This document shows positions 9,399 to 41,408 of a stretch of DNA of 64,000 bases, piece after piece. The notes beneath the pieces are model-generated. The model was not told where the DNA came from and made no database searches. It worked only from the letters and a program-made list of their open reading frames with translations. A program made the position numbers and the translations under genes. Within the stretch, counting starts at the first letter, position 1; every line of letters starts with the position of its first letter. This DNA comes from Acetobacter orientalis (GTDB taxonomy: Bacteria; Pseudomonadota; Alphaproteobacteria; Acetobacterales; Acetobacteraceae), in contig NZ_BAMX01000010.1 of assembly GCF_000963965.1 (NCBI RefSeq), positions 62,001 through 126,000 of the forward strand. The letters are read 5' to 3'.

Positions 9399-10310
9399 AT
9401 GCTTGATATTATTGTCCTTGGCGCAGCCGCTGGCGGCGGTTTCCCACAATGGAACTCTAACGCCGCAGCGTGTAACCGCGCCCGTGCACAAGACCCTAAA
9501 GCCCCTGCACGCACGCAGGCCTCCTTAGCGGTAAGCGGCGATGGCGTGCATTGGTACATTCTCAATGCCTCGCCAGATTTACGCACCCAAATTAACCAGA
9601 CTCCGGCCCTACACCCCAAAACCGGCCTACGCTCTACCCCAATAAGCGGTGTGGTGCTAACCAGTGGTGAAATTGACACCATTACCGGCCTGCTTACCCT
9701 GCGCGAAAAACAGGCTTTTGCCCTTTACGCCGCCCAGCCCGTACTGGCCCAGCTTGACGCAAACCCAATATTTGAAGCCCTAGACCGCAGCTTGGTGAGC
9801 CGCTACAGCATGGCGCTTGGTCAGCCATTGGCCCTAACGCCTGCCGGTTTTAGCATCACCCCGTTTGCTGTACCCGGCAAAGTGCCATTGTATGCCGAGC
9901 AAGGGGCAAACCCCGCCGAAATTAAAATGGACGGCGAATTTATTGGCCTCGATATTTCAGACGGCCAGCGCCATGCCCTGTTTATTCCCGGTTGCGCCAT
10001 GATGACAGATCCCCTCGCCCAAAAAATAAACGGGGCAGATCTTGTCTTTTTTGATGGTACACTCTGGACAGATGATGAAATGGTGCGCGCAGGCCTAGGG
10101 GCTAAAACCGGCAAGCGCATGGGCCACATGTCTGTGGCAGACACACCAGATGGCACCCTAGCCACCTTTGCACCCCTGCATGTTGGGCGTAAAATTTTTA
10201 TTCACATCAATAACTCCAACCCTATCCTCATTTCAGACTCGCCCGAGCGGCAAGCCGTTGAGCAGGCAGGGTGGGAGGTTGCTTTTGACGGCATGAGGGT
10301 AACGCTATGA
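9399..10310 (+). CDS. pqqB: PqqB, PQQ biosynthesis metallo-beta-lactamase-fold protein
   Basis: 303 aa, the usual PqqB length, with the family N-terminus MLDIIVLGAAAGGGFPQWNS followed by C-rich NAAACNRAR. HMSVADTPDG and HINNSNPIL near the C-terminus are PqqB hallmarks. It belongs to the metallo-hydrolase fold and is proposed to act on the cross-linked tyrosine intermediate in the cytoplasm, with its exact reaction less settled than those of PqqC/D/E. The stop overlaps the pqqC start by 4 nt (ATGA), so the two are translationally coupled. Confidence 0.96.
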   Translation: MLDIIVLGAAAGGGFPQWNSNAAACNRARAQDPKAPARTQASLAVSGDGVHWYILNASPDLRTQINQTPALHPKTGLRSTPISGVVLTSGEIDTITGLLTLREKQAFALYAAQPVLAQLDANPIFEALDRSLVSRYSMALGQPLALTPAGFSITPFAVPGKVPLYAEQGANPAEIKMDGEFIGLDISDGQRHALFIPGCAMMTDPLAQKINGADLVFFDGTLWTDDEMVRAGLGAKTGKRMGHMSVADTPDGTLATFAPLHVGRKIFIHINNSNPILISDSPERQAVEQAGWEVAFDGMRVTL

Positions 10311-31890: not shown

Positions 31891-31967
31891 GGCGGACGTA
31901 GCTCAGTTGGTAGAGCGCCGGTTTGTGGTACCGGTTGTCGCGGGTTCGATCCCCGTCGTTCGCCCCA
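31891..31967 (+). tRNA. tRNA-His (GTG anticodon)
   Basis: Full cloverleaf: acceptor GCGGACG/CGTTCGC, D-arm GCTC...GAGC, anticodon arm CCGGT-TTGTGGT-ACCGG with GTG, and T-arm GCGGG-TTCGATC-CCCGT. The 3' CCA is encoded. The extra G at 31891, opposite discriminator C at 31964, is the G-1 diagnostic of tRNA-His. Its last bases (from 31951) form the left attachment repeat of the adjoining element. Confidence 0.97.
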
Positions 31968-31980
31968 GCCATATATTTCC
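31951..31980 (+). repeat. attL: 30-bp direct repeat overlapping the tRNA-His 3' end
   Basis: Identical over 30 bp to 38430-38459. The first 17 bp are the 3' end of tRNA-His including CCA, so the tRNA is kept intact after integration. Confidence 0.92.
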
Positions 31981-32082
31981 TTTAAAAATCAATACGTTAC
32001 CAAAGCCAAGCGTCATAGGGCTGTAGTCGTGCGTCATAGGTCTAGCGTCATACCCAAGCAGAGCGCCAAGGGTAAGCATGAC

Positions 32083-33693
32083 ATGCAGAACATGACTAAA
32101 CGGGGCAACGTTTACTACGTCCGTTTTATCGTACCTAAAGAGCGTTGGCATGATGTTGGTATGGTGACAGGTGCCCGTAACGGGACACGCAAAGACATTA
32201 CCAAGTCTCTGAGCACCAAAGAGTATCGAGAAGCCCTTGTTAGGCGTGACGCAGCCCTTACGGTAATCAGGGAAGAAACGAATGCGGCACTAGCCCAGCA
32301 CAAGCTCCCTCCGTTGCACGGTGATTGGAAGCCTTCTTGGGGCAGCTTACAGCAACAGCTTACAGAACAAGCCCTAGAAGCCCGTAAAGCACTAGAAGAA
32401 GCGGATACATACCGCACGCCTTACTATGAGAATGACGACCCACACACGGGCCGTATTGTCGCAGAGGCTATTTCAGACCAAGACTTTGGTACCGATGTTG
32501 TAAGGGAAGAACTCTGGGCAACCGCGCAGAATATCGAAACACAAAGCACAGACAAACAAAACGGGCTAAGACAGGCACAAGCAGCCTATGAGCAGGCGTT
32601 AGGCATTGCTACGGGCACTGCAACGCCCCTTAGCGTTCTCCTTGACCGCTGGTTACCCCAGCTAGAAGGGCACGTTACCCAAGAGCTGATAGATAGACAC
32701 CACAGGACTTTACGCCGTTTTGGGGCTTATCTAGCAGAAGCACACGGCTTGCAAACAGACGACCCAGAGAGCTATGCCAGAAGTACACCGATAGAAAGCA
32801 TAGACAGAAAGACAGCGGGCCTATTCAGAGAGTGGTTAGAGAGACTGCCCAATGTTGGCCCCCGCGTAGTAGGCTTTCATCTTTCAACCATGAATACATT
32901 CTGGAAATGGGCACAGGACGTTGGTTATGCAGAGGTTAATCCGTGGGAGGGAGCAACACGGGGCCTTAAGAAGAAGATTGCCAAGGCTTCCAGAGTACGA
33001 GGGGAGAAACGGCCCTATACCGATGCCGAATTGATAGCCCTACTCACACAAGCCAGAGAACGCCTAAAACAGCCTAAGAAATGGCCTTGGGCACGGGTTA
33101 TCTATGACATGCTACGCTTAGCCCCGCTTACAGGGTGCAGGCAAAACGAACTAGCCAGCTTAACGGTAGATCGCGTTATCAAACCAACACAACCTGAGCA
33201 GCTTTGGCGTATCTCTGTCACTGAAGAAGTAAGCAAAACACGCTCTTCTACTAGAGAAGTGCCGCTACACCCAATAGCTCAGGCGGTTATTGCGCAGCGC
33301 CTTGCAGAACTACCCGCAGAACATACCCAAGACGCACCGCTATTCCCTGAGTGTAAACCCGGAGGGCGTGACAATAAGCCGGGGCATTACCTGTCTAAAC
33401 GCTACGCCACCTTTCTACGCTCTGTGCTCGGTGAAAACCCCGAGATCGACTTTCACAGCTTCCGTAGATGCTTTTCCACCTTCATGGCTACGGCAGAAGC
33501 TAACGGAGCACAGCACTGCCCTGAATTAGTGCTAGAGCATCTTATTGGGCACAAGCCTGTCTCGCTCGCGCATAACACCTACGCAGCAAAGCGGTTTGAT
33601 TGGTCTGTATATGACAATGCAATCATGGAAATGGTCAGTAAGGGTGTAAGTGAGCACGTTCGCGACTCCATGAGTATTGTATGCTCTATTTAA
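32083..33693 (+). CDS. Tyrosine recombinase (phage-type integrase)
   Basis: 536 aa. The N-terminal part (MTKRGNVYYVRFIVPKERWHD) is the DUF6538-like arm-binding domain common in alphaproteobacterial prophage integrases. A SAM-like core-binding domain lies at about 185-300. The catalytic domain has Arg in LTGCRQNELASL, H-x2-R in DFHSFRRCF, His in LIGHKPVS and the nucleophile Tyr in AHNTYAAKRFDW. The ATG at 32083 follows AAGGG, and the frame is open back to 32029. It integrates the element at tRNA-His, whose end is 116 bp upstream. Confidence 0.93.
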   Translation: MQNMTKRGNVYYVRFIVPKERWHDVGMVTGARNGTRKDITKSLSTKEYREALVRRDAALTVIREETNAALAQHKLPPLHGDWKPSWGSLQQQLTEQALEARKALEEADTYRTPYYENDDPHTGRIVAEAISDQDFGTDVVREELWATAQNIETQSTDKQNGLRQAQAAYEQALGIATGTATPLSVLLDRWLPQLEGHVTQELIDRHHRTLRRFGAYLAEAHGLQTDDPESYARSTPIESIDRKTAGLFREWLERLPNVGPRVVGFHLSTMNTFWKWAQDVGYAEVNPWEGATRGLKKKIAKASRVRGEKRPYTDAELIALLTQARERLKQPKKWPWARVIYDMLRLAPLTGCRQNELASLTVDRVIKPTQPEQLWRISVTEEVSKTRSSTREVPLHPIAQAVIAQRLAELPAEHTQDAPLFPECKPGGRDNKPGHYLSKRYATFLRSVLGENPEIDFHSFRRCFSTFMATAEANGAQHCPELVLEHLIGHKPVSLAHNTYAAKRFDWSVYDNAIMEMVSKGVSEHVRDSMSIVCSI

Positions 33694-33732
33694 CTCCACT
33701 TAGCCAAAACCAGCACACCCAACGCTGCCCCG

Positions 33733-33754
33733 GATAGTTTACATACTAACTATC
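33733..33754. repeat. Inverted repeat between convergent recombinase genes
   Basis: GATAGTT (33733-33739) and AACTATC (33748-33754) are separated by 8 nt, between the 3' ends of the integrase and serine recombinase genes and touching the latter's stop. It is AT-rich with no T-tract, so a protein-binding dyad is as likely as a terminator. Confidence 0.45.
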
Positions 33755-34420
33755 TTACCCAAGGCACCTTTTTACAGCCGCAGGAGTCCACTCAGTCTTC
33801 CTTCGGCTAGTCCTAACCCCCATAGCCTCTAGACGCCCTGCTATGGCCCGTAGAGACAACCCTTGACTGTGTAAAGTGGCGATGGTTGGCCCCACCCTTT
33901 CCTTGAACCCTTGCGCCTTCTCTTGCAGTGCTAGAGTGCCTTTCTGGTTATCTGGTGCGGGGCCACCTTTATACCCACCCAACACAACCCCACGCTTCTT
34001 TGCCGCAGCAAGAGCAGCTTTGGTGCGTTCGCTAATTACACAGCGTTCTTTCTCAGCCATAGCGGCCCATATGTGCAACATAAAGGGATCAGCATCTTTG
34101 CCTAACTCAGCCACGATAAACGGAACACGGTTAGCCATAAGCCCAGCTATGAACGCCACATCACGGCTAAGGCGGTCTAGCTTGGCTACCAGCACAGGGC
34201 ATTGCATGACCTTGGCCTTATCCAATGCGGCAGAGAGCTGGGGGCGCTTAAAGAGAGCATCACTCCCCTTGCCTGTCTCAACCTCTGTAAACACTTCTAC
34301 TACGTCAAAGCCCTCCGCCTGAGCAAAGCTGTGTATGGCTGCAAGCTGTGCTTCCATTCCAAGGCCACTTTTACCCTGCTTGGTTGTGCTTACTCGGATA
34401 TAGGCAACAGCTTTGGTCAT
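33755..34420 (-). CDS. Serine recombinase (resolvase/invertase family)
   Basis: 221 aa. The N-terminal catalytic domain starts [12 protein letters not shown] with nucleophile Ser11. [11 protein letters not shown] carries the conserved arginines. The E-helix region ([28 protein letters not shown]) leads to a C-terminal helix-turn-helix ([23 protein letters not shown]). The size and domain order are those of small resolvases/invertases, not of large serine integrases. A perfect 7-bp dyad lies 13-32 bp upstream of its ATG. It is convergent with the integrase, and the partner site or invertible segment was not found. Confidence 0.92.
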
Positions 34421-34432
34421 AGTGTTTCATTC

Positions 34433-34452
34433 CAGACAATGAACGTTGTCTG
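34433..34452. promoter_or_regulatory. Perfect dyad upstream of the serine recombinase gene
   Basis: CAGACAA-TGAACG-TTGTCTG, with 7-bp arms and a 6-nt spacer, 13 bp before the recombinase start. This is the usual place for a resolvase binding site that also represses its own gene. Confidence 0.5.
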
Positions 34453-34587
34453 TTTTGATACAGAGTAAACGGAGGGCCAGCCACACTCAATTCTGAATCC
34501 GTCCTATGCCGTTCATGAATCAATACAGGGGTTGGGCTGTAAATCGTGTTTCTCCTGATTTAATCAAGCATTTATCAGAAAACCCCT

Positions 34588-34620
34588 AATTAGCGGCCTC
34601 ATTAGAGAAGCGCCCCTAAA
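34588..34620 (+). repeat. Element intergenic repeat, copy 1
   Basis: Begins AATTAGCGGCCTCATTAGAG and ends GCGCCCCTAAA. Copy 2 at 34893-34925 has the same length with about three substitutions. Confidence 0.75.
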
Positions 34621-34892
34621 AGATACCACAGACAACCACGCCTATCACAACCTTGCGGGACTCAAAACGGGTACCCTTGCCCCACGGTTTCATGGTCACC
34701 GATCGACTTCAAGAAAGGGGGCTTAAGCCGTTGTTGTTGTTCAGTGGCAGACCACGAAAACATTCTCAGGGAAAACTCTATAAATGCACAGAATTAAGGG
34801 ACCCCTTTTGGTTACCTTTTGGGGCCTTTTTAGGGTCTTAGACGAAACTATGAATTTTATAGGTTTTTCAATGGGTTACGGTGAAAATAGGG

Positions 34893-34925
34893 AATTAGCG
34901 GCCCCATTAGAGGAACGCCCCTAAA
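34893..34925 (+). repeat. Element intergenic repeat, copy 2
   Basis: Begins AATTAGCGGCCCCATTAGAG and ends ACGCCCCTAAA. It lies about 97 bp before the KTSC start codon. Confidence 0.75.
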
Positions 34926-35021
34926 GGTAAGGGTATAGAGGGAGAGCGTTCACCCACTTCTAGCCTTGCCTAGGTGTACGTTTACATCAACCAATCAATA
35001 ATAATCACTTAGGGGAAATGC

Positions 35022-35249
35022 ATGCTCTTTAATACCATAGTAACCCGCCCACTGATGATAAGCGGTAGCAGCGTAATAAGCTCAGCCGAATATGATGCAT
35101 CAATCTTAGAGCTAACAATCACATTCAGGCGGGGTCAGACTTACACCTATTCTGGCGTTAGTCTCAAGGTGGCGGAGGGCTTAGAAATGGCTACTTCCCC
35201 CGGTGCTTACTATGATGCACGGATACGTGGTCACTACACACGTAGCTAG
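35022..35249 (+). CDS. KTSC-domain small protein
   Basis: 75 aa. The segment SSAEYDASILELTITFRRGQ then YTYSGVSLKVAEGLEMATSP and GAYYDARIRGHY follows the KTSC domain (S-S-x-hydrophobic-x2-Y-D...L-x-V/I-x-F...Y-x-Y-x-G-V...S-x-G-x-Y-x2-x-I-R). Stand-alone KTSC proteins are common in phages and bacteria, and their role is not established. The ATG follows TTAGGGGAAATGC. It sits between copies 2 and 3 of the element repeat, which suggests its own transcription unit. Confidence 0.78.
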   Translation: MLFNTIVTRPLMISGSSVISSAEYDASILELTITFRRGQTYTYSGVSLKVAEGLEMATSPGAYYDARIRGHYTRS

Positions 35250-35251
35250 GG

Positions 35252-35276
35252 AATTAGTGGCCCATTAGGGGATACC
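35252..35276 (+). repeat. Element intergenic repeat, copy 3 (shorter, diverged)
   Basis: AATTAGTGGCCCATTAGGGG then ATACC. It shares the left half with copies 1 and 2. It begins 3 bp after the KTSC stop and about 200 bp before the next gene. Confidence 0.65.
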
Positions 35277-35451
35277 ATAATCACCTACCCCTTAATCTGA
35301 CTGTGTTGTGGTTAAATAGACATTGTTTCCACCCTGCCTGTTTAGCCTGAGCACAGCCGTGCCAAGCTCAACTCATAGCGTAGTACATTAGGCACATCTA
35401 CAAAGGTACAACATAACAGTTTGATACCAATAATGATAAGAACAGGAACTA

Positions 35452-36669
35452 ATGGGAAAAAGTAAGACTAAGACAACTACAGACGCAAGCTCACAGACAA
35501 AGCCCCTAGACTGGCAAGAGGGGCCACTTAAGGGTGCATTTAACACTGCGCAGGGCATCTACAACCAGCAAAGCTCAGACCCTAATCAGCCTAACTGGAA
35601 TGTCTATTCCACCCTTAATGACACTGAGAAGGCGGCCTTATCTAACGCGGGCACAAACAGCGTAAACCAGAGCAATATGGGCAATACCCTTATGAATACT
35701 GGTACAGGTCTGTTAAGCAATAGCACCTCTGGCACCACAAACATGGGAACAGCAGCTAATACAGCAGCACAGTTTGCCAATGGTGGCTTTAATCAGGGGT
35801 CTACAACAGCCTCTAATGCTGTAGCGAGTAATGCAGGGGCTTACGGTAATCAGGGCTTAACCAACCTTCAGAATGCCTCTAATTTAGCCAACACAGATGC
35901 TACGGCTCAAAATACAGCCGATGCAACTGCATATGCGAATTCTTCAGGTGTTCAGAATGCAATCAAAGCAGCTAACGCCTATGCTGACCAGATGTACCAA
36001 CGTACAACAGGTACAGACCTGAATGCACAGGCAGTTGTGGGTGGTAACTTGAATAGCTCCCGTGCTGGTGCTGCAAGCGCTGTGTCTCAGGCGCTTCAGA
36101 ATGCCCAAGATGAAAACAACGCAGCCACCATGTATCAGAATGCGTACAATACGGGTCTTTCTACGGCAGAGCAGGCCCGCCAGAGCAATATGAGCGGTCT
36201 ACTTAATGGAGCTGCCACAGGCATCTCAGGGGCAAACTCTGGTGTTGAAGCGCAGCAGGCAGGCAACGCTCAGGTTAATGCTAACAATGCTACGCAGCAG
36301 AATGGGGCCTCTATCCTGAGTAATATCGGCTCCAATCAGGTTGGAGCGGCGAGTACAGGAAGTAATATAGCATCTCAGGGGGTTACACTTCAGAATATTG
36401 CTAACACAGCAGCATACAATGCAGGTAAAATTGCCCAAGACGACCAGAATAACGCCAATAAAGCTGCTGTAGAGGGCTATCAAGCGCAAAACCAAAACCA
36501 GTGGACTCAGCTTGATAACCTTTACAATATCATTGGCGGAACCACTTGGGGCGGGAACTCTACCGGCCATTCCACGAGCACAGTCGTTCAGACCCCTAGT
36601 ACCATGTCCATGATCCAAGGTGCTATCGGTACTGTGGGTAGCCTAGCAGGTGGTGTTGGCCTGTTATAA
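35452..36669 (+). CDS. Phage-virion-like Asn/Gln/Ala/Ser/Gly-rich protein
   Basis: 405 aa. It begins MGKSKTKTTTDASSQTKPLDWQ, a Lys/Thr-rich head followed by a Trp motif, then LKGAFNTAQGIYNQQ. The body is very rich in N, A, Q, S, T and G, with many short Q-N-A and N-A-x-x-x-N repeats and no transmembrane or signal segment until a hydrophobic Gly-rich C-terminus (MIQGAIGTVGSLAGGVGLL). From memory, this layout resembles proteins near the tail and ejection genes of podophages. I infer a virion or DNA-ejection role but cannot prove it. The ATG follows AGGAAC. Confidence 0.55.
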   Translation: MGKSKTKTTTDASSQTKPLDWQEGPLKGAFNTAQGIYNQQSSDPNQPNWNVYSTLNDTEKAALSNAGTNSVNQSNMGNTLMNTGTGLLSNSTSGTTNMGTAANTAAQFANGGFNQGSTTASNAVASNAGAYGNQGLTNLQNASNLANTDATAQNTADATAYANSSGVQNAIKAANAYADQMYQRTTGTDLNAQAVVGGNLNSSRAGAASAVSQALQNAQDENNAATMYQNAYNTGLSTAEQARQSNMSGLLNGAATGISGANSGVEAQQAGNAQVNANNATQQNGASILSNIGSNQVGAASTGSNIASQGVTLQNIANTAAYNAGKIAQDDQNNANKAAVEGYQAQNQNQWTQLDNLYNIIGGTTWGGNSTGHSTSTVVQTPSTMSMIQGAIGTVGSLAGGVGLL

Positions 36670-36762
36670 GAGCGAGACCAACACCAAAAAGAAAATACAA
36701 ATACACAGAATAGAATCTGATTTAGTGATTTAGTGATTTAGTGGGTTAATTGTTTCTCGCTC
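36670..36762. repeat. Tandem 8-mers inside an inverted repeat after the virion-like gene
   Basis: TGATTTAG is repeated three times in perfect tandem (36718-36741). It lies between GAGCGAGA (36670-36677) and its complement TCTCGCTC (36755-36762). AT-rich sequence follows to 36800. Confidence 0.6.
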
Positions 36763-36891
36763 TATTACACAATTTAGTAAAAATTACTATATTATTATTT
36801 TCGATACGAGCCATTCTTGCTTGCCTATTGCGGCTAAACTCTAGTTTAAATACCCGTCTATTGCCCATCAACTGCAATAGAAGGTGTCGGT

Positions 36892-37071
36892 ATGACCCCG
36901 CCCGCTTACCCCTCCGAAGAAACCACAGACATAATTACAGCGGCAGCCCTTGGCCGGATAGAGCCAAGCAATCTCGAAGAGCTGGCCCAACACTTCATCA
37001 ATGAAGCTCAGTTTCTCAGAAGCGCGGCGCAAAGACTTACACAGCGCGGCCTAATCTCAGGGCACCACTAA
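36892..37071 (+). CDS. Small acidic hypothetical protein of the element
   Basis: 59 aa, MTPPAYPSEETTDIITAAAL then GRIEPSNLEELAQHFINEAQ and FLRSAAQRLTQRGLISGHH. It is probably helical, with no known family. AAGG lies 7 nt upstream of the ATG, and the next gene starts 40 nt downstream, so it fits into a small operon with the HNH gene. Helical, Gln/Glu-rich small proteins of this sort are common in phages. Confidence 0.6.
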   Translation: MTPPAYPSEETTDIITAAALGRIEPSNLEELAQHFINEAQFLRSAAQRLTQRGLISGHH

Positions 37072-37110
37072 CAAACCTTCATGACTAAACAGAAAAGGCA
37101 GGAGCCACTC

Positions 37111-37857
37111 ATGAACAAAACAAAACCACAACCCCAGAAAACCAATCAGGAAAAACGCCGTGTACTAGAGCATTACCTAGCCATACCTGATAACCATAAG
37201 ACTGCTACGCGGCGGCTCATGGATAAGGTAGACACTAATGGGCCTATTCCAGAGCATCGCCCTGAGCTTGGCCCATGCTGGCTCTGGAAGGGTGCCACGA
37301 ACGGCCTAAAACCCCCGTATGGTAAGTTCCCCATAAGAGCAATAGACCAGCAACCAAGGGCGCATGTTGTTTCCTACCTGCTAAGGAACGGCGTTACGCC
37401 TGAAAACCAACCAGTTATTGACCACCTGTGTGGCAATACAATGTGCGTAAACCCAGACCACCTAGAAGCAGTGACGCAAAAAGAGAATATGCGGAGGGCT
37501 AAGAAAGTGAAAGCGCAGCCCCCTATGGATTCCGCAAGCCGTGATGCTCGGGTTTTTGAAGCCGTCTCATATGAAATAGAAAACTTAACCATCTCTCAAA
37601 TAATGGAGAAGACGGGTAGGTCACAAAGCAGCGTAAGCAGCCACCGTAAGGCTATAAAGGAGGGGCCGCTGGGGCGTGTGGTGGAACGATCTAAAAAACA
37701 GAGAAAGCTGCTTTTTCAGGCCAAGGCAGAGATTGCCAAACTTGCAAGCGCATGGCGTGCCGACCCCACCCCAAAACTAGAACGCCTGCCCGCCGATCTT
37801 AAACACAAAGCACAAAAATATTACACCACTGAAGGGCAGCCCAATCATGACCAGTAA
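37111..37857 (+). CDS. HNH homing-type endonuclease with C-terminal DNA-binding helix-turn-helix
   Basis: 248 aa. The HNH core is AHVVSYLLRNG...VIDHLCGNTMCVNPDHLEAV, with His in IDHLC, Asn in CVNPDH and the final His. Two cysteines (LCGNTMC) match zinc-stabilised HNH folds. A helix-turn-helix follows (LTISQIMEKTGRSQSSVSSHRKAI), typical of phage-borne homing endonucleases. The ATG at 37111 follows GGAG, so I prefer it to the ATG at 37081. It overlaps the next gene by 11 nt. Confidence 0.85.
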   Translation: MNKTKPQPQKTNQEKRRVLEHYLAIPDNHKTATRRLMDKVDTNGPIPEHRPELGPCWLWKGATNGLKPPYGKFPIRAIDQQPRAHVVSYLLRNGVTPENQPVIDHLCGNTMCVNPDHLEAVTQKENMRRAKKVKAQPPMDSASRDARVFEAVSYEIENLTISQIMEKTGRSQSSVSSHRKAIKEGPLGRVVERSKKQRKLLFQAKAEIAKLASAWRADPTPKLERLPADLKHKAQKYYTTEGQPNHDQ

Positions 37858-38140
37858 AACACCCATCGCACAGCTCGCCTCTGTATTGGAGGCCATACCG
37901 AGCGAGTATGCTTCGTATCTGAACGTGGGAGACCTACGCGCCCTTGTACGCCTTAGCATCGCCCCAGAAGCAGCTAGAAGCTCTTATCTACCAATCGTGG
38001 ACACCCCACGGCTGTGTAATATGTCAAAGGGCCGCTTTCGCTTCGTCAAGCTACTTGCAAACGAAGAGCGTAACCTTGAAGCCTTCAGCTTAACAGAAGA
38101 AGGGCTTAGACTAATTACAAGCCTATCTAGAGGCATATAG
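37847..38140 (+). CDS. Small hypothetical protein of the element
   Basis: 97 aa, starting inside the end of the HNH gene with AAGGGCAG upstream. The C-terminal part, FVKLLANEERNLEAFSLTEEGLRLITSL, has the look of a winged-helix wing (F-S-L-T-E-E-G). No family is recognised. Overlap with the HNH gene suggests cotranslation. Confidence 0.6.
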   Translation: MTSKTPIAQLASVLEAIPSEYASYLNVGDLRALVRLSIAPEAARSSYLPIVDTPRLCNMSKGRFRFVKLLANEERNLEAFSLTEEGLRLITSLSRGI

Positions 38141-38252
38141 CCCTCAGAGACTCGCAGGAGACCACACAGGGCCTTCTAGGTTTACCTTAATGCACCACAC
38201 CAGCCTAGCACCACAGACCACTCTAGGGCGGCATTTTGAGGGATTTAGCATC

Positions 38253-38384
38253 ATGCTGTTTCCTTTGAATGCTGCCCTTTTGTTTTGGCTCTTGCCTATC
38301 AGTTCTCGACTCTGCATGATGGTTTGCAAGAAGGGTATGCGGGTCAGACGTGCCGATACAACCGAAAACGCTACAGGTTTTTGA
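38253..38384 (+). CDS. Possible one-helix membrane peptide of the element
   Basis: 43 aa, MLFPLNAALLFWLLPISSRL then a basic tail CMMVCKKGMRVRRADTTENA. One membrane helix and a positive C-terminus, with GAGGGAT 9 nt upstream. It could be a small holin-like or regulatory membrane peptide, or chance. Confidence 0.3.
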   Translation: MLFPLNAALLFWLLPISSRLCMMVCKKGMRVRRADTTENATGF

Positions 38385-38429
38385 TATAAGCATCTGATTT
38401 ATAACGGTTTTATATGATTAGGTGTAGAG

Positions 38430-38459
38430 CCCCGTCGTTCGCCCCAGCCATATATTTCC
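38430..38459 (+). repeat. attR: right 30-bp direct repeat
   Basis: Exact copy of 31951-31980, lacking the rest of the tRNA. Confidence 0.92.
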
Positions 38460-38600
38460 CTTAAAAATTAAAACGTTACCAAAAACCAAGCTCTTTGGCT
38501 TTAGTCGTGTGCCATAGATCTAGCGTCATGCCCAAGCTGCGTGCCAAGGGGGCGCATAATCAGGCAGAGCACGAGCAAGTGGGGTAACGCTGAATTAAGG
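38460..38600 (+). pseudogene. Remnant left end of a related element, with decayed integrase start
   Basis: Continues the match to the element's left end beyond the att repeat: 38460-38600 is collinear with 31981 to about 32117, roughly 75-80% identical by eye with a few 1-nt gaps. It includes the stretches ACGTTACC, TAGTCGTG and TCTAGCGTCAT. The last part corresponds to the first codons of the integrase, here without an intact ATG. This DNA lies outside the present element. Confidence 0.65.
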
Positions 38601-38621
38601 TGGGGTAACGCTTAATTTAAG
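38579..38621 (+). repeat. Two tandem copies of a 21-22 bp sequence
   Basis: GTGGGGTAACGCTGAATTAA (38579-38598, plus G) is followed at once by GTGGGGTAACGCTTAATTTA (38600-38619, plus AG). The first copy overlaps the decayed integrase start. Confidence 0.7.
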
Positions 38622-39002
38622 TAAGCCAGCTTTCTTGTCTCTCACGCGTAGTAGCATGAGGTGTGCGCACTCTCCATCATCACCCTACCATCCTCATTGC
38701 TCGCAAAGCGGCATCGTGTTCTTTTTTATTTAAAAATGATCACTCTTTCCCATTATTCCAGACAACACACGGCAATAAGGCTCTCTAAATCCTTAGCATA
38801 TAGAGTAATGTGTGGGAATTATGCATTTTACGATTACATCATAACTCCTCTCTTCTTCTCTTTACATTTAAATTTGAAAAATAACCCTTTTTATACAATC
38901 CATCCCTTCAAATTTACCGGATTTTCGAGATAGTCATTCATTTTCTTTATAAAATATCGTATCTGTTATGCACTTTCCCTCAGATATTGATGGTTCTTCT
39001 GC
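38622..39002. other. AT-rich region upstream of gcd
   Basis: 380 bp with no supported gene. A 90-codon frame at 38661-38933 has no ribosome site and unlikely composition. The last 200 bp are AT-rich and should hold the gcd promoter. Confidence 0.4.
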
Positions 39003-41408
39003 ATGACAACATCACCACCCCGCTCTGGGTTGCCTGTGACCCTTACCGTAATCCTCTTTCTTATTCTTGGGCTTTTTCTAACCCTTGGCGGCGCATGGCT
39101 GGCCGTTTTAGGGGGCTCTTACTTTTACCTGTTTAGTGGCGTTGTGCTGCTGGTTACCGCGGTGCTGCTGCTTAAACGCTGGCGCGAGGCCCTGTGGCTG
39201 TACGCGGCACTGGTTTTTATCACGCTGGCTTGGTCGGTATGGGAAGCCGGGTTTGACTTCTGGGCACTCGCCCCGCGGGGTGATGTTATTTTGCCGCTTG
39301 GCCTGTGGCTGTTGTTACCGTTTGTCTCTCGCGCGTTATTACCGGCCAGTACACTTAACCGCATACCACTTGCCGCAGGCATTGTAGTGGGCCTTGGGGT
39401 TTATGGCTTTGCCCTAACCCAAGACCCGCAAGATATTGCTGGCGTACTCCCCTCCGTTACCCAGCAAGGCGGTGCCTTAACCCCGGCAGATAGCGCAGAA
39501 GCCCCAGCCGCAGACTGGCCAGCTTATGGCCGCACGCAGTTTGGCAACCGCTACTCCCCGCTCGCGCAAGTGACACCAGCTAACGTAAGCAAGCTCAAAG
39601 TGGCATGGGTTTTTCAAACACATGACCTAAAAACCCCTAACGACCCCGGTGAAATTACCGATGAGGTCACACCTATTAAAGTGCGCGACACGCTCTATCT
39701 GTGCTCGCCCCACCAAATGGTGTTTGCGCTTGATGCCGCAACGGGCAAACAAAAATGGAAGTTTGACCCCAAAATTGCATACAACCCCACCTTTCAGCAC
39801 ATGACCTGCCGCGGCGTGTCTTACGCTGAAACCCACGAGGGTGACGTAACAAGCGATGGCACACCCGCACCAACTGAGTGCGCGCACCGCATTTTTCTCC
39901 CTACAAACGATGGCCGCCTGATTGCCCTGAACGCAGACACGGGTGCAACCTGCCCCAGCTTTGGCAACAATGGCAGCCTAGACCTGTCTGATGGCATGCC
40001 CATGCACGAGGCTGGTTTTTACGAGCCTACCTCTCCGCCAATTGTGACCCACAAGGTCGTTATTATTTCTGGCGCGGTAACAGACAACTATTCAACACAC
40101 GAGCCATCAGGCGTTACCCGCGCGTACGACCTCTATACCGGCCATCTGGTCTGGGCGTTTGATGCAGGCAACCCCAACCCTAACGAACTCCCCTCTGCCA
40201 CCCACCATTACGTGGCAAACTCCCCCAATTCATGGATTACGTCTGCTTATGACGCTAAACTGAACCTCATTTATATTCCAACCGGCGTTGCAACCCCAGA
40301 CATCTGGGGCGGTCACCGCTCTGCCGACCAAGAACGTTATGCCTCTGGCATTTTGGCACTCAATGCCGATACGGGCGAGAAAGTCTGGTTCTACCAAACC
40401 GTGCACCACGACTTGTGGGACATGGACATTCCCGCCCAGCCAAGCCTTGTGGATATTCGCCAACAAGATGGCTCCATTGTGCCTGCCCTGTATGCCCCAG
40501 CCAAAACCGGCAATATTTTTGTGCTAGACCGCCGCAACGGCCACTTGATTGTACCAGCACCAGAAACCCCCGTGCCACAGGGCGCTGCACCGGGCGACCA
40601 CGTCTCACCCACGCAGCCTTACTCTGCCCTTACCTTCCGGCCTAAAAAGAACCTGACCGATGCAGACATGTGGGGCGGCACCATGCTGGATCAGATGGTG
40701 TGCCGTATCATGTTCAAAAAACTGCGTTATGAAGGGCCGTTTACCCCACCCTCTGAGCAAGGCACGTTGGTGTTCCCCGGTAATTTGGGCATGTTTGAAT
40801 GGGGTGGTTTAGCGGTAGACCCTGTGCGGCAAGTGGCTTTTGCCAACCCTATTGCCATTCCGTTTGTGTCTACGCTTATTCCACGTGGGCCTAAAAACCC
40901 GGCACAGCCAGACCCAAATGCAGGGCCATCTGGGTCAGAAAGTGGTGTGCAGCCACAATACGGCACACCCTATGGGGTAGACCTGCACGCCTTTCTGTCT
41001 CCACTCGGTGTGCCGTGCAAACAGCCGGGTTGGGGGTATGTGGCAGGCATAGACCTAAAAACCAACACCATTAAATGGATGCACCGTAACGGCACCGTGC
41101 GCGACAGCTCCCCCCTGCCCTTGCCGTTTAAAGTTGGCATTCCCTCCCTTGGTGGGCCACTTACCACAGCGGGTGGCGTTGCTTTCCTGACCTCAACAGC
41201 CGATTATTATATTCGTGCGTATGATGTCACGACCGGCAAACAGCTTTGGCAAGACCGCCTGCCCGCTGGTGGCCAATCTACCCCCATGACCTACGAAGCC
41301 AACGGACGCCAGTTTATTGTAACAGCCGATGGTGGCCACGGATCTTTTGGCACCAAACTGGGTGACTACATTGTGGCCTATGCTTTACCAGACGGCACAC
41401 AGCCCTAA
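39003..41408 (+). CDS. gcd: Membrane-bound PQQ-dependent glucose dehydrogenase
   Basis: 801 aa, the normal size. Five N-terminal membrane helices (about 10-140) anchor it and pass electrons to ubiquinone. The rest is a periplasmic eight-bladed propeller with tryptophan-docking repeats (GRLIALNADTGATC, GILALNADTGEKVWFYQ, DVTTGKQLWQDRLPAGGQST). Typical motifs are DWPAYGRTQFGNRYSPL, HMTCRGVSYAETHEGD and FPGNLGMFEWGGLAVDP. It oxidises D-glucose to gluconolactone outside the cytoplasm and uses the cofactor made by the pqq cluster in this window. An inverted repeat at 41423-41468 (GGCATGTG/CACATGCC) follows it. Confidence 0.95.
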   Translation: MTTSPPRSGLPVTLTVILFLILGLFLTLGGAWLAVLGGSYFYLFSGVVLLVTAVLLLKRWREALWLYAALVFITLAWSVWEAGFDFWALAPRGDVILPLGLWLLLPFVSRALLPASTLNRIPLAAGIVVGLGVYGFALTQDPQDIAGVLPSVTQQGGALTPADSAEAPAADWPAYGRTQFGNRYSPLAQVTPANVSKLKVAWVFQTHDLKTPNDPGEITDEVTPIKVRDTLYLCSPHQMVFALDAATGKQKWKFDPKIAYNPTFQHMTCRGVSYAETHEGDVTSDGTPAPTECAHRIFLPTNDGRLIALNADTGATCPSFGNNGSLDLSDGMPMHEAGFYEPTSPPIVTHKVVIISGAVTDNYSTHEPSGVTRAYDLYTGHLVWAFDAGNPNPNELPSATHHYVANSPNSWITSAYDAKLNLIYIPTGVATPDIWGGHRSADQERYASGILALNADTGEKVWFYQTVHHDLWDMDIPAQPSLVDIRQQDGSIVPALYAPAKTGNIFVLDRRNGHLIVPAPETPVPQGAAPGDHVSPTQPYSALTFRPKKNLTDADMWGGTMLDQMVCRIMFKKLRYEGPFTPPSEQGTLVFPGNLGMFEWGGLAVDPVRQVAFANPIAIPFVSTLIPRGPKNPAQPDPNAGPSGSESGVQPQYGTPYGVDLHAFLSPLGVPCKQPGWGYVAGIDLKTNTIKWMHRNGTVRDSSPLPLPFKVGIPSLGGPLTTAGGVAFLTSTADYYIRAYDVTTGKQLWQDRLPAGGQSTPMTYEANGRQFIVTADGGHGSFGTKLGDYIVAYALPDGTQP

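Follow-up and report, generated by a model that had tools for sequence, protein, structure and literature searches.

The window analysed here is a stretch of 64,000 nucleotides of the Acetobacter orientalis genome (contig NZ_BAMX01000010.1, positions 62,001 to 126,000). In this window, a tRNA-His gene is followed by a resident integrative element of about 6.5 kb and, directly to the right of the attR of this element, by a flank that very probably stems from a second, related element, of which it is the decayed left end. The features of the locus are listed in Table 1. To judge from its sequence, the resident appears to be a tyrosine-recombinase integrative element located at the 3' end of a tRNA gene, with the integrase gene adjoining the tRNA gene and the core present at both ends. 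The 16-nt core occurs in two copies (31951-31966 and 38430-38445), and a third copy is not detectable anywhere in the window when up to 3 mismatches are allowed. The integrase, for which an alternative, longer start is possible at the GTG codon at 32029, displays R-H-R-H-Y-type motifs when inspected by eye, and the reading frames of both the integrase and the serine recombinase are open. Within the leader of the resident, direct repeats of the GCGTCATA type occur three times (at 32010-32019, 32031-32040 and 32045-32054); they are putative arm sites of the integrase. Enrichment of this 10-mer alone in the window was not found at up to 2 mismatches (54 hits vs a shuffle mean of 47), so that its meaning rests on conservation between elements.

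Table 1. Features of the tRNA-His locus of the window, in genomic order (positions are those of the window)
Feature	Position	Strand	Basis or remark
tRNA-His (GTG) gene	31892..31967	+	ARAGORN; 3' end is the integration target
attL core block	31951..31980	+	30 nt identical to 38430-38459
Leader at the left end of the resident (putative P' arm)	31997..32082	+	conserved in the left ends of Komagataeibacter xylinus (L023), G060:C41, G020 and G185
Tyrosine integrase of the resident	32083..33693	+	Pfam Phage_integrase E 5.5e-07; phrog_1 E 1.6e-32 (translation of 32080-33693)
Serine recombinase (DNA-invertase-like)	33755..34420	-	Pfam Resolvase 1.4e-25; phrog_125
KTSC-domain protein	35022..35249	+	Pfam
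Phage DNA-ejection-protein-like gene	35452..36669	+	phrog_4287 E 1.2e-07; no Pfam match
HNH endonuclease, near the right end	37081..37857	+	family matches
Right end of the resident	38347..38410	+	blastn 75%, 65 columns, to the K. xylinus right end (L023 16533-16596)
attR core block	38430..38459	+	30-nt identity block with attL
Probable decayed left end of another element of the same family, comprising trailer, P' arm, leader and ~9 initial integrase codons	38447..38589	+	alignment, profile
21-nt tandem repeat	38579..38620	+	the similarity ends within it, after 11 nt
Chromosomal spacer upstream of the dehydrogenase-like gene (39003)	38927..38995	+	blastn 74%, 69 columns, to the element-free G001 site

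Downstream of the tRNA-derived core, the sequence 38447-38589 is collinear with the resident left end (31968-32110). The local alignment spans 145 columns with 79.3% identity and has a score of 132, compared to a maximum of 28 among 1000 dinucleotide-preserving shuffles, which rules out chance resemblance. An earlier note, made from the letters of this DNA, had claimed such collinearity for the segment 38430-38621, down to a broken copy of the first integrase codons. The collinearity is borne out, with identity beyond 38460 far above chance in the pairwise alignment that the note had proposed, whereas the far limit is not, given that the similarity ends at 38589. The first ~28 nt past the tRNA count little as evidence because similar trailers follow tRNA-His in element-free relatives (e.g., G008, G056 and G003); over the 115 left-end positions after these 28 nt, the identity is 73%. 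The similarity is weakest at the far end, where one blastn run reached only 38550 (84%, 106 columns) and where the segment 38551-38589, which contains the integrase codons, is about two-thirds identical by eye. The broken integrase copy also proved right in substance: about nine codons follow the position that matches the ATG at 32083, both candidate ATG starts (32083 and 32092) are changed, one base is inserted, and the possible GTG start (counterpart of 32029) is kept. As to the leader repeats, the first is lost in the flank, the second carries three changes and the third carries one. A left-end profile built from five left ends, with the flank excluded, detects the flank with 67.9 bits (E 1.7e-20), compared to 5.7 bits for the best reversed-sequence control.

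A relative of the resident in Komagataeibacter xylinus (L023), with an integrase that is ~73% identical, occupies the same tRNA and provides a control for what one insertion leaves behind. In this case, the identity between attL and attR covers 26 nt, with divergence setting in after a few more, and the right flank contains neither leader repeats nor any duplication beyond the att core. This agrees with the argument of the earlier note that a single insertion cannot duplicate more than the core. The left end itself recurs in K. xylinus, in genome G020, in genome G185 from another genus, and on contig C41 of genome G060, and is a property of the element family. Taken as such, the flank would be the decayed left end of a second, related integrative element, a conclusion that we hold with high confidence whichever of the two elements came first.

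Left-end traces are also found at other tRNA-His sites in the genus. A recognisable tRNA-His is present in 47 of the 49 genus genomes, and the downstream DNA (46 fetched stretches and the window) was scored over the first 1500 nt after the tRNA, on one strand, at E < 1e-5 with either of two profiles. Traces were detected at 11 of these 47 sites, namely, those of the window's own genome, G011, G060, G020, G045, G041, G064, G043, G055, G050 and G015, the last six being outside the profile training sets. The integrase is full-length and open in the window and in G011, and frameshifted in G060. Seven sites (G041, G045, G043, G055, G064, G050 and G015) are stubs that retain at most the first ~110 residues of the integrase. 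The integrase similarity ends at residue 109 in G041, 78 in G045, 74 in G043 (with the G011 integrase as query; 43 with that of the window) and 37 in G055; in G064, G050 and G015, a search of 3 kb at E <= 0.01 detects none. The open reading frames that follow the stubs look chromosomal by eye, with a transposase-like exception in G050. Apart from the tRNA's own, no core copy is found in 10 kb in G041, G064, G043 and G055, the four sites covered by the core count, the core pattern being unfit for the tRNA ends of G045, G050 and G015.

Two of these sites are particularly close to the window in their organization. In G064, the tRNA-His is followed by ~102 nt of the left end and then by other genes, including the same dehydrogenase gene (tblastn), so that this site would be a picture of the window site without its resident. 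In G011, the tRNA-His is followed by an element that carries genes for an integrase, an invertase and an HNH protein, then by another tRNA-His and an integrase stub (amino acids 12-86), with the similarity stopping inside an open reading frame of 199 residues. This is a parallel case, an element and then a stub, with the same layout as the window. The two tRNA-His copies of G011 are identical and complete (301-376 and 10099-10174 of locus L061, G011:C4:171188-187361), and the usual aminotransferase gene is found upstream of the first copy only.

The order of events that we favour is as follows. An earlier relative would have integrated into the 3' end of tRNA-His and, by deletion, would have lost nearly all of its sequence from the early codons of the integrase up to and including the right end, after which the leftover P' arm would have drifted. 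The resident element would then have integrated via the tRNA core. Because insertion at the core separates the downstream sequence from the tRNA, the pre-existing stub would have been shifted to the outer side of attR and so become the right flank. The state of the flank is consistent with decay: it differs at 18 of the 71 columns that are invariant in the four other left ends, and the G064 stub differs at 14 of 57, compared to 5/76, 8/79, 6/77 and 9/80 for each of the four reference left ends against the other three (pooled Fisher P 4e-4, with columns taken as independent and the comparisons using four and three reference rows, respectively). With this many invariant columns changed and the repeats lost or altered, we rejected the possibility that the flank is a kept, working arm region.

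The layout would be the same if the resident had come first and a relative had integrated into the attR core of the resident, with the newer, distal element subsequently decaying. This reversed order, a variant that preserves the core claim of a second element, appears rather unlikely to us. Decay is far more advanced in the stub than in the left end of the resident (18/71 vs 5/76 invariant columns changed), the resident integrase is open, and stubs located directly at tRNA-His, with no resident detected, are common in other species, which makes a pre-existing stub plausible. For these reasons, the stub-first order is the more likely one. The suggestion of the earlier note that the site had been occupied before by a relative thus stands with respect to the relative, whose decayed left end the flank very probably is, and is likely, rather than secure, with respect to its prior arrival.

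Several observations weigh against the flank being the left end of a second, related element, or against parts of the case made for it. Five of the 11 traced sites (the window's own, G020, G011, G045 and G060) belonged to a profile training set, and the flank is missed at E <= 1 by the second profile (leftB), which represents a divergent subfamily. A right end belonging to the second element was not found in the window, its loss being part of the proposed scenario, and no clear match to an empty site was found for 38590-38926, so that the right boundary of the remnant is not located. Among the four reference left ends, that of G020 may itself be broken. The genus set contains one genome per species, and the empty-site comparison is therefore between species, with no site from the same species. 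In a left-end tree of 115 columns, the flank is unplaced (support 48). Finally, the flank is closest to the left end of the resident, which makes a former second copy of the resident a possible source of the flank, at least as far as these alignments indicate.

In its explicit form, the latter alternative derives the stub from the resident, as the remainder of a duplicate copy in a tandem dimer that was trimmed. Over 115 columns, the flank indeed shows 73% identity with the resident left end, compared to 62-64% with the three other close left ends. The 27% difference, however, exceeds that between the left ends of the resident and of the K. xylinus relative (79% identity), which comes from another genus. 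The dimer would thus have to be old, and yet the integrase and recombinase frames of the resident are open. We consider this origin improbable.

The flank might also be the ordinary tRNA-His trailer of the host, from which the element would have derived its own left end. The first ~28 nt past the tRNA, which are like the trailers of the element-free relatives, fit this explanation. Beyond them, the picture is different: at E <= 0.001, the sequence 38447-38760 matches only 3 of the 49 genus genomes, and apart from the window's own genome, these matches lie in copies of the family left end, in G020 at tRNA-His and in G060 on contig C41, directly before a family integrase and behind a sequence other than a tRNA-His end. 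In G001, the tRNA-His is followed by a 538-nt spacer, in which the flank sequence is not found, and then by a dehydrogenase gene 92% identical to that of the window. More generally, the comparison with empty sites that the earlier note had suggested, run across other species, recovers element-free tRNA-His sites without sequence of the 38460-38600 type. For 38475-38589, we count the trailer explanation as refuted in the genomes examined, and for the flank as a whole, we give it very little credence. An assembly artefact, i.e., a collapsed or misjoined repeat, would be conceivable in a draft genome of 66 contigs, and is the least credible explanation of all, given that the two copies, both inside a single 239 kb contig, disagree at roughly one position in five and that neither of them, used as a query against the own genome, retrieved any place beyond these two.

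On contig C41 of G060 (L103 near 4449; L024 near 8888), the left end and integrase lie behind a sequence for which no tRNA was called (L024), yet which resembles a tRNA 3' end by eye; the element family may use more than one target. A breakpoint shared by the flank and G020 was considered and rejected: the G020 left end runs into insertion-like sequence, as judged by eye, before the contig ends, so that this site is not counted among the stubs, and the other breakpoints differ. To the right of the flank, the gene at 39003 is presumably dehydrogenase-like. In gapped alignments of 38687-39002, G001 scores 97 and G064 scores 29, where the highest-scoring of 200 simple shuffles reach 93 and 45, respectively; the part clearly shared with G001 is limited to 38927-38995.

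Outside the genus, the tRNA-His site of G185 shows integrase similarity to residue 71 only. In this locus (L053, minus strand, 1443 and 2545), the tRNA-His with the left-end stub is followed ~1.1 kb further on by a second tRNA 3' end sequence, and the locus may be a short remnant that has retained the two att sites. In G023, G005 and G047 (L078, L096 and L098, respectively), a second exact tRNA-His core is located ~6.9 kb downstream, without a match to the resident integrase; perhaps other elements occupy tRNA-His in these genomes. Across the traced tRNA-His sites (loci L057-L102), the integrase similarity is either full length, or nearly so, or limited to ~110 residues or less, with no intermediates. 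It is conceivable, albeit quite improbable, that the left-end stubs are not neutral debris and that this bimodal distribution reflects a specific process. Examples would be repeated one-sided deletion that stops short of the leader, or an advantage in retaining the leader, be it in the role of a tRNA trailer or because it forms a hybrid attachment site and so influences where later elements insert.

The resident looks phage-derived, and no conjugation gene was identified in it, no search aimed at such genes having been made. It shares a skeleton with two other tRNA-His elements, so that three elements from two genera (window 31951-38445, L023 8873-16631 and L061 301-10174; ~6.5, 7.7 and 9.8 kb, respectively) all have an integrase at the left end, a DNA-invertase-like gene on the minus strand and an HNH endonuclease towards the right end. 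The remaining genes differ, including an anti-repressor in K. xylinus and an endolysin-like gene in G011. These small elements are possibly phage satellites or reduced prophages. A scan of viral contigs with the integrase pattern yielded two fitting stretches, neither of them a relative, and the leader pattern had no match there; among the genome contigs, 2 of the 20 pattern matches are relatives.

What the site offers is a readable record of the serial occupation of one tRNA gene, with a resident and a remnant in the window and, in sister species, a stub alone, an element alone or the two together. Accordingly, tRNA-His can be used for counting and ordering insertions in the genus. The site also carries a caution: when similarity extends past the att core at the right edge of an element, its source can be a different element and not the ends of the resident. 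Among the papers listed in the literature searches, none on this tRNA-His site was found.

Among known systems, the closest counterpart is the tandem accretion of integrative and conjugative elements (ICEs) and integrative and mobilizable elements (IMEs) with a decayed partner, the cis-mobilizable element (CIME); work on ICESt1 of Streptococcus thermophilus is cited in PMC5704250. The window and G011 resemble it in having two elements of like specificity at one att site. They part from it in that the decayed partner in the window kept its left end only and the resident looks phage-derived. A CIME, by definition, keeps attL and attR and lacks the integration and transfer genes. In the window, the core lies at the junctions 31951 and 38430, with none found for the far end of the remnant, and the remnant does not qualify as a CIME: with up to 3 mismatches allowed, no right-hand att copy is found past the stub in the window, although one that has decayed further would escape. 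PMC5704250 describes integration, decay and renewed integration of an element of the same specificity alongside at one att site. Similarly, according to PMC3146451, the ssrA gene of Dehalococcoides is a small-RNA gene at which islands are serially inserted, bounded by direct repeats, with integration genes frequently located at their left edge; those islands are multiple and in tandem, in contrast to one resident and one stub in the window. Among the acetic acid bacteria, the temperate prophage phiAP1 of A. pasteurianus has, according to PMC8566455, a tyrosine-type integrase and a 24 bp att site at the 3' end of tRNA-Ser. It is thus like the resident in the use of a tRNA 3' end and in the type of integrase, and differs in the tRNA. 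Against this background, the locus is a fresh case of an established principle, the serial use of one att site.
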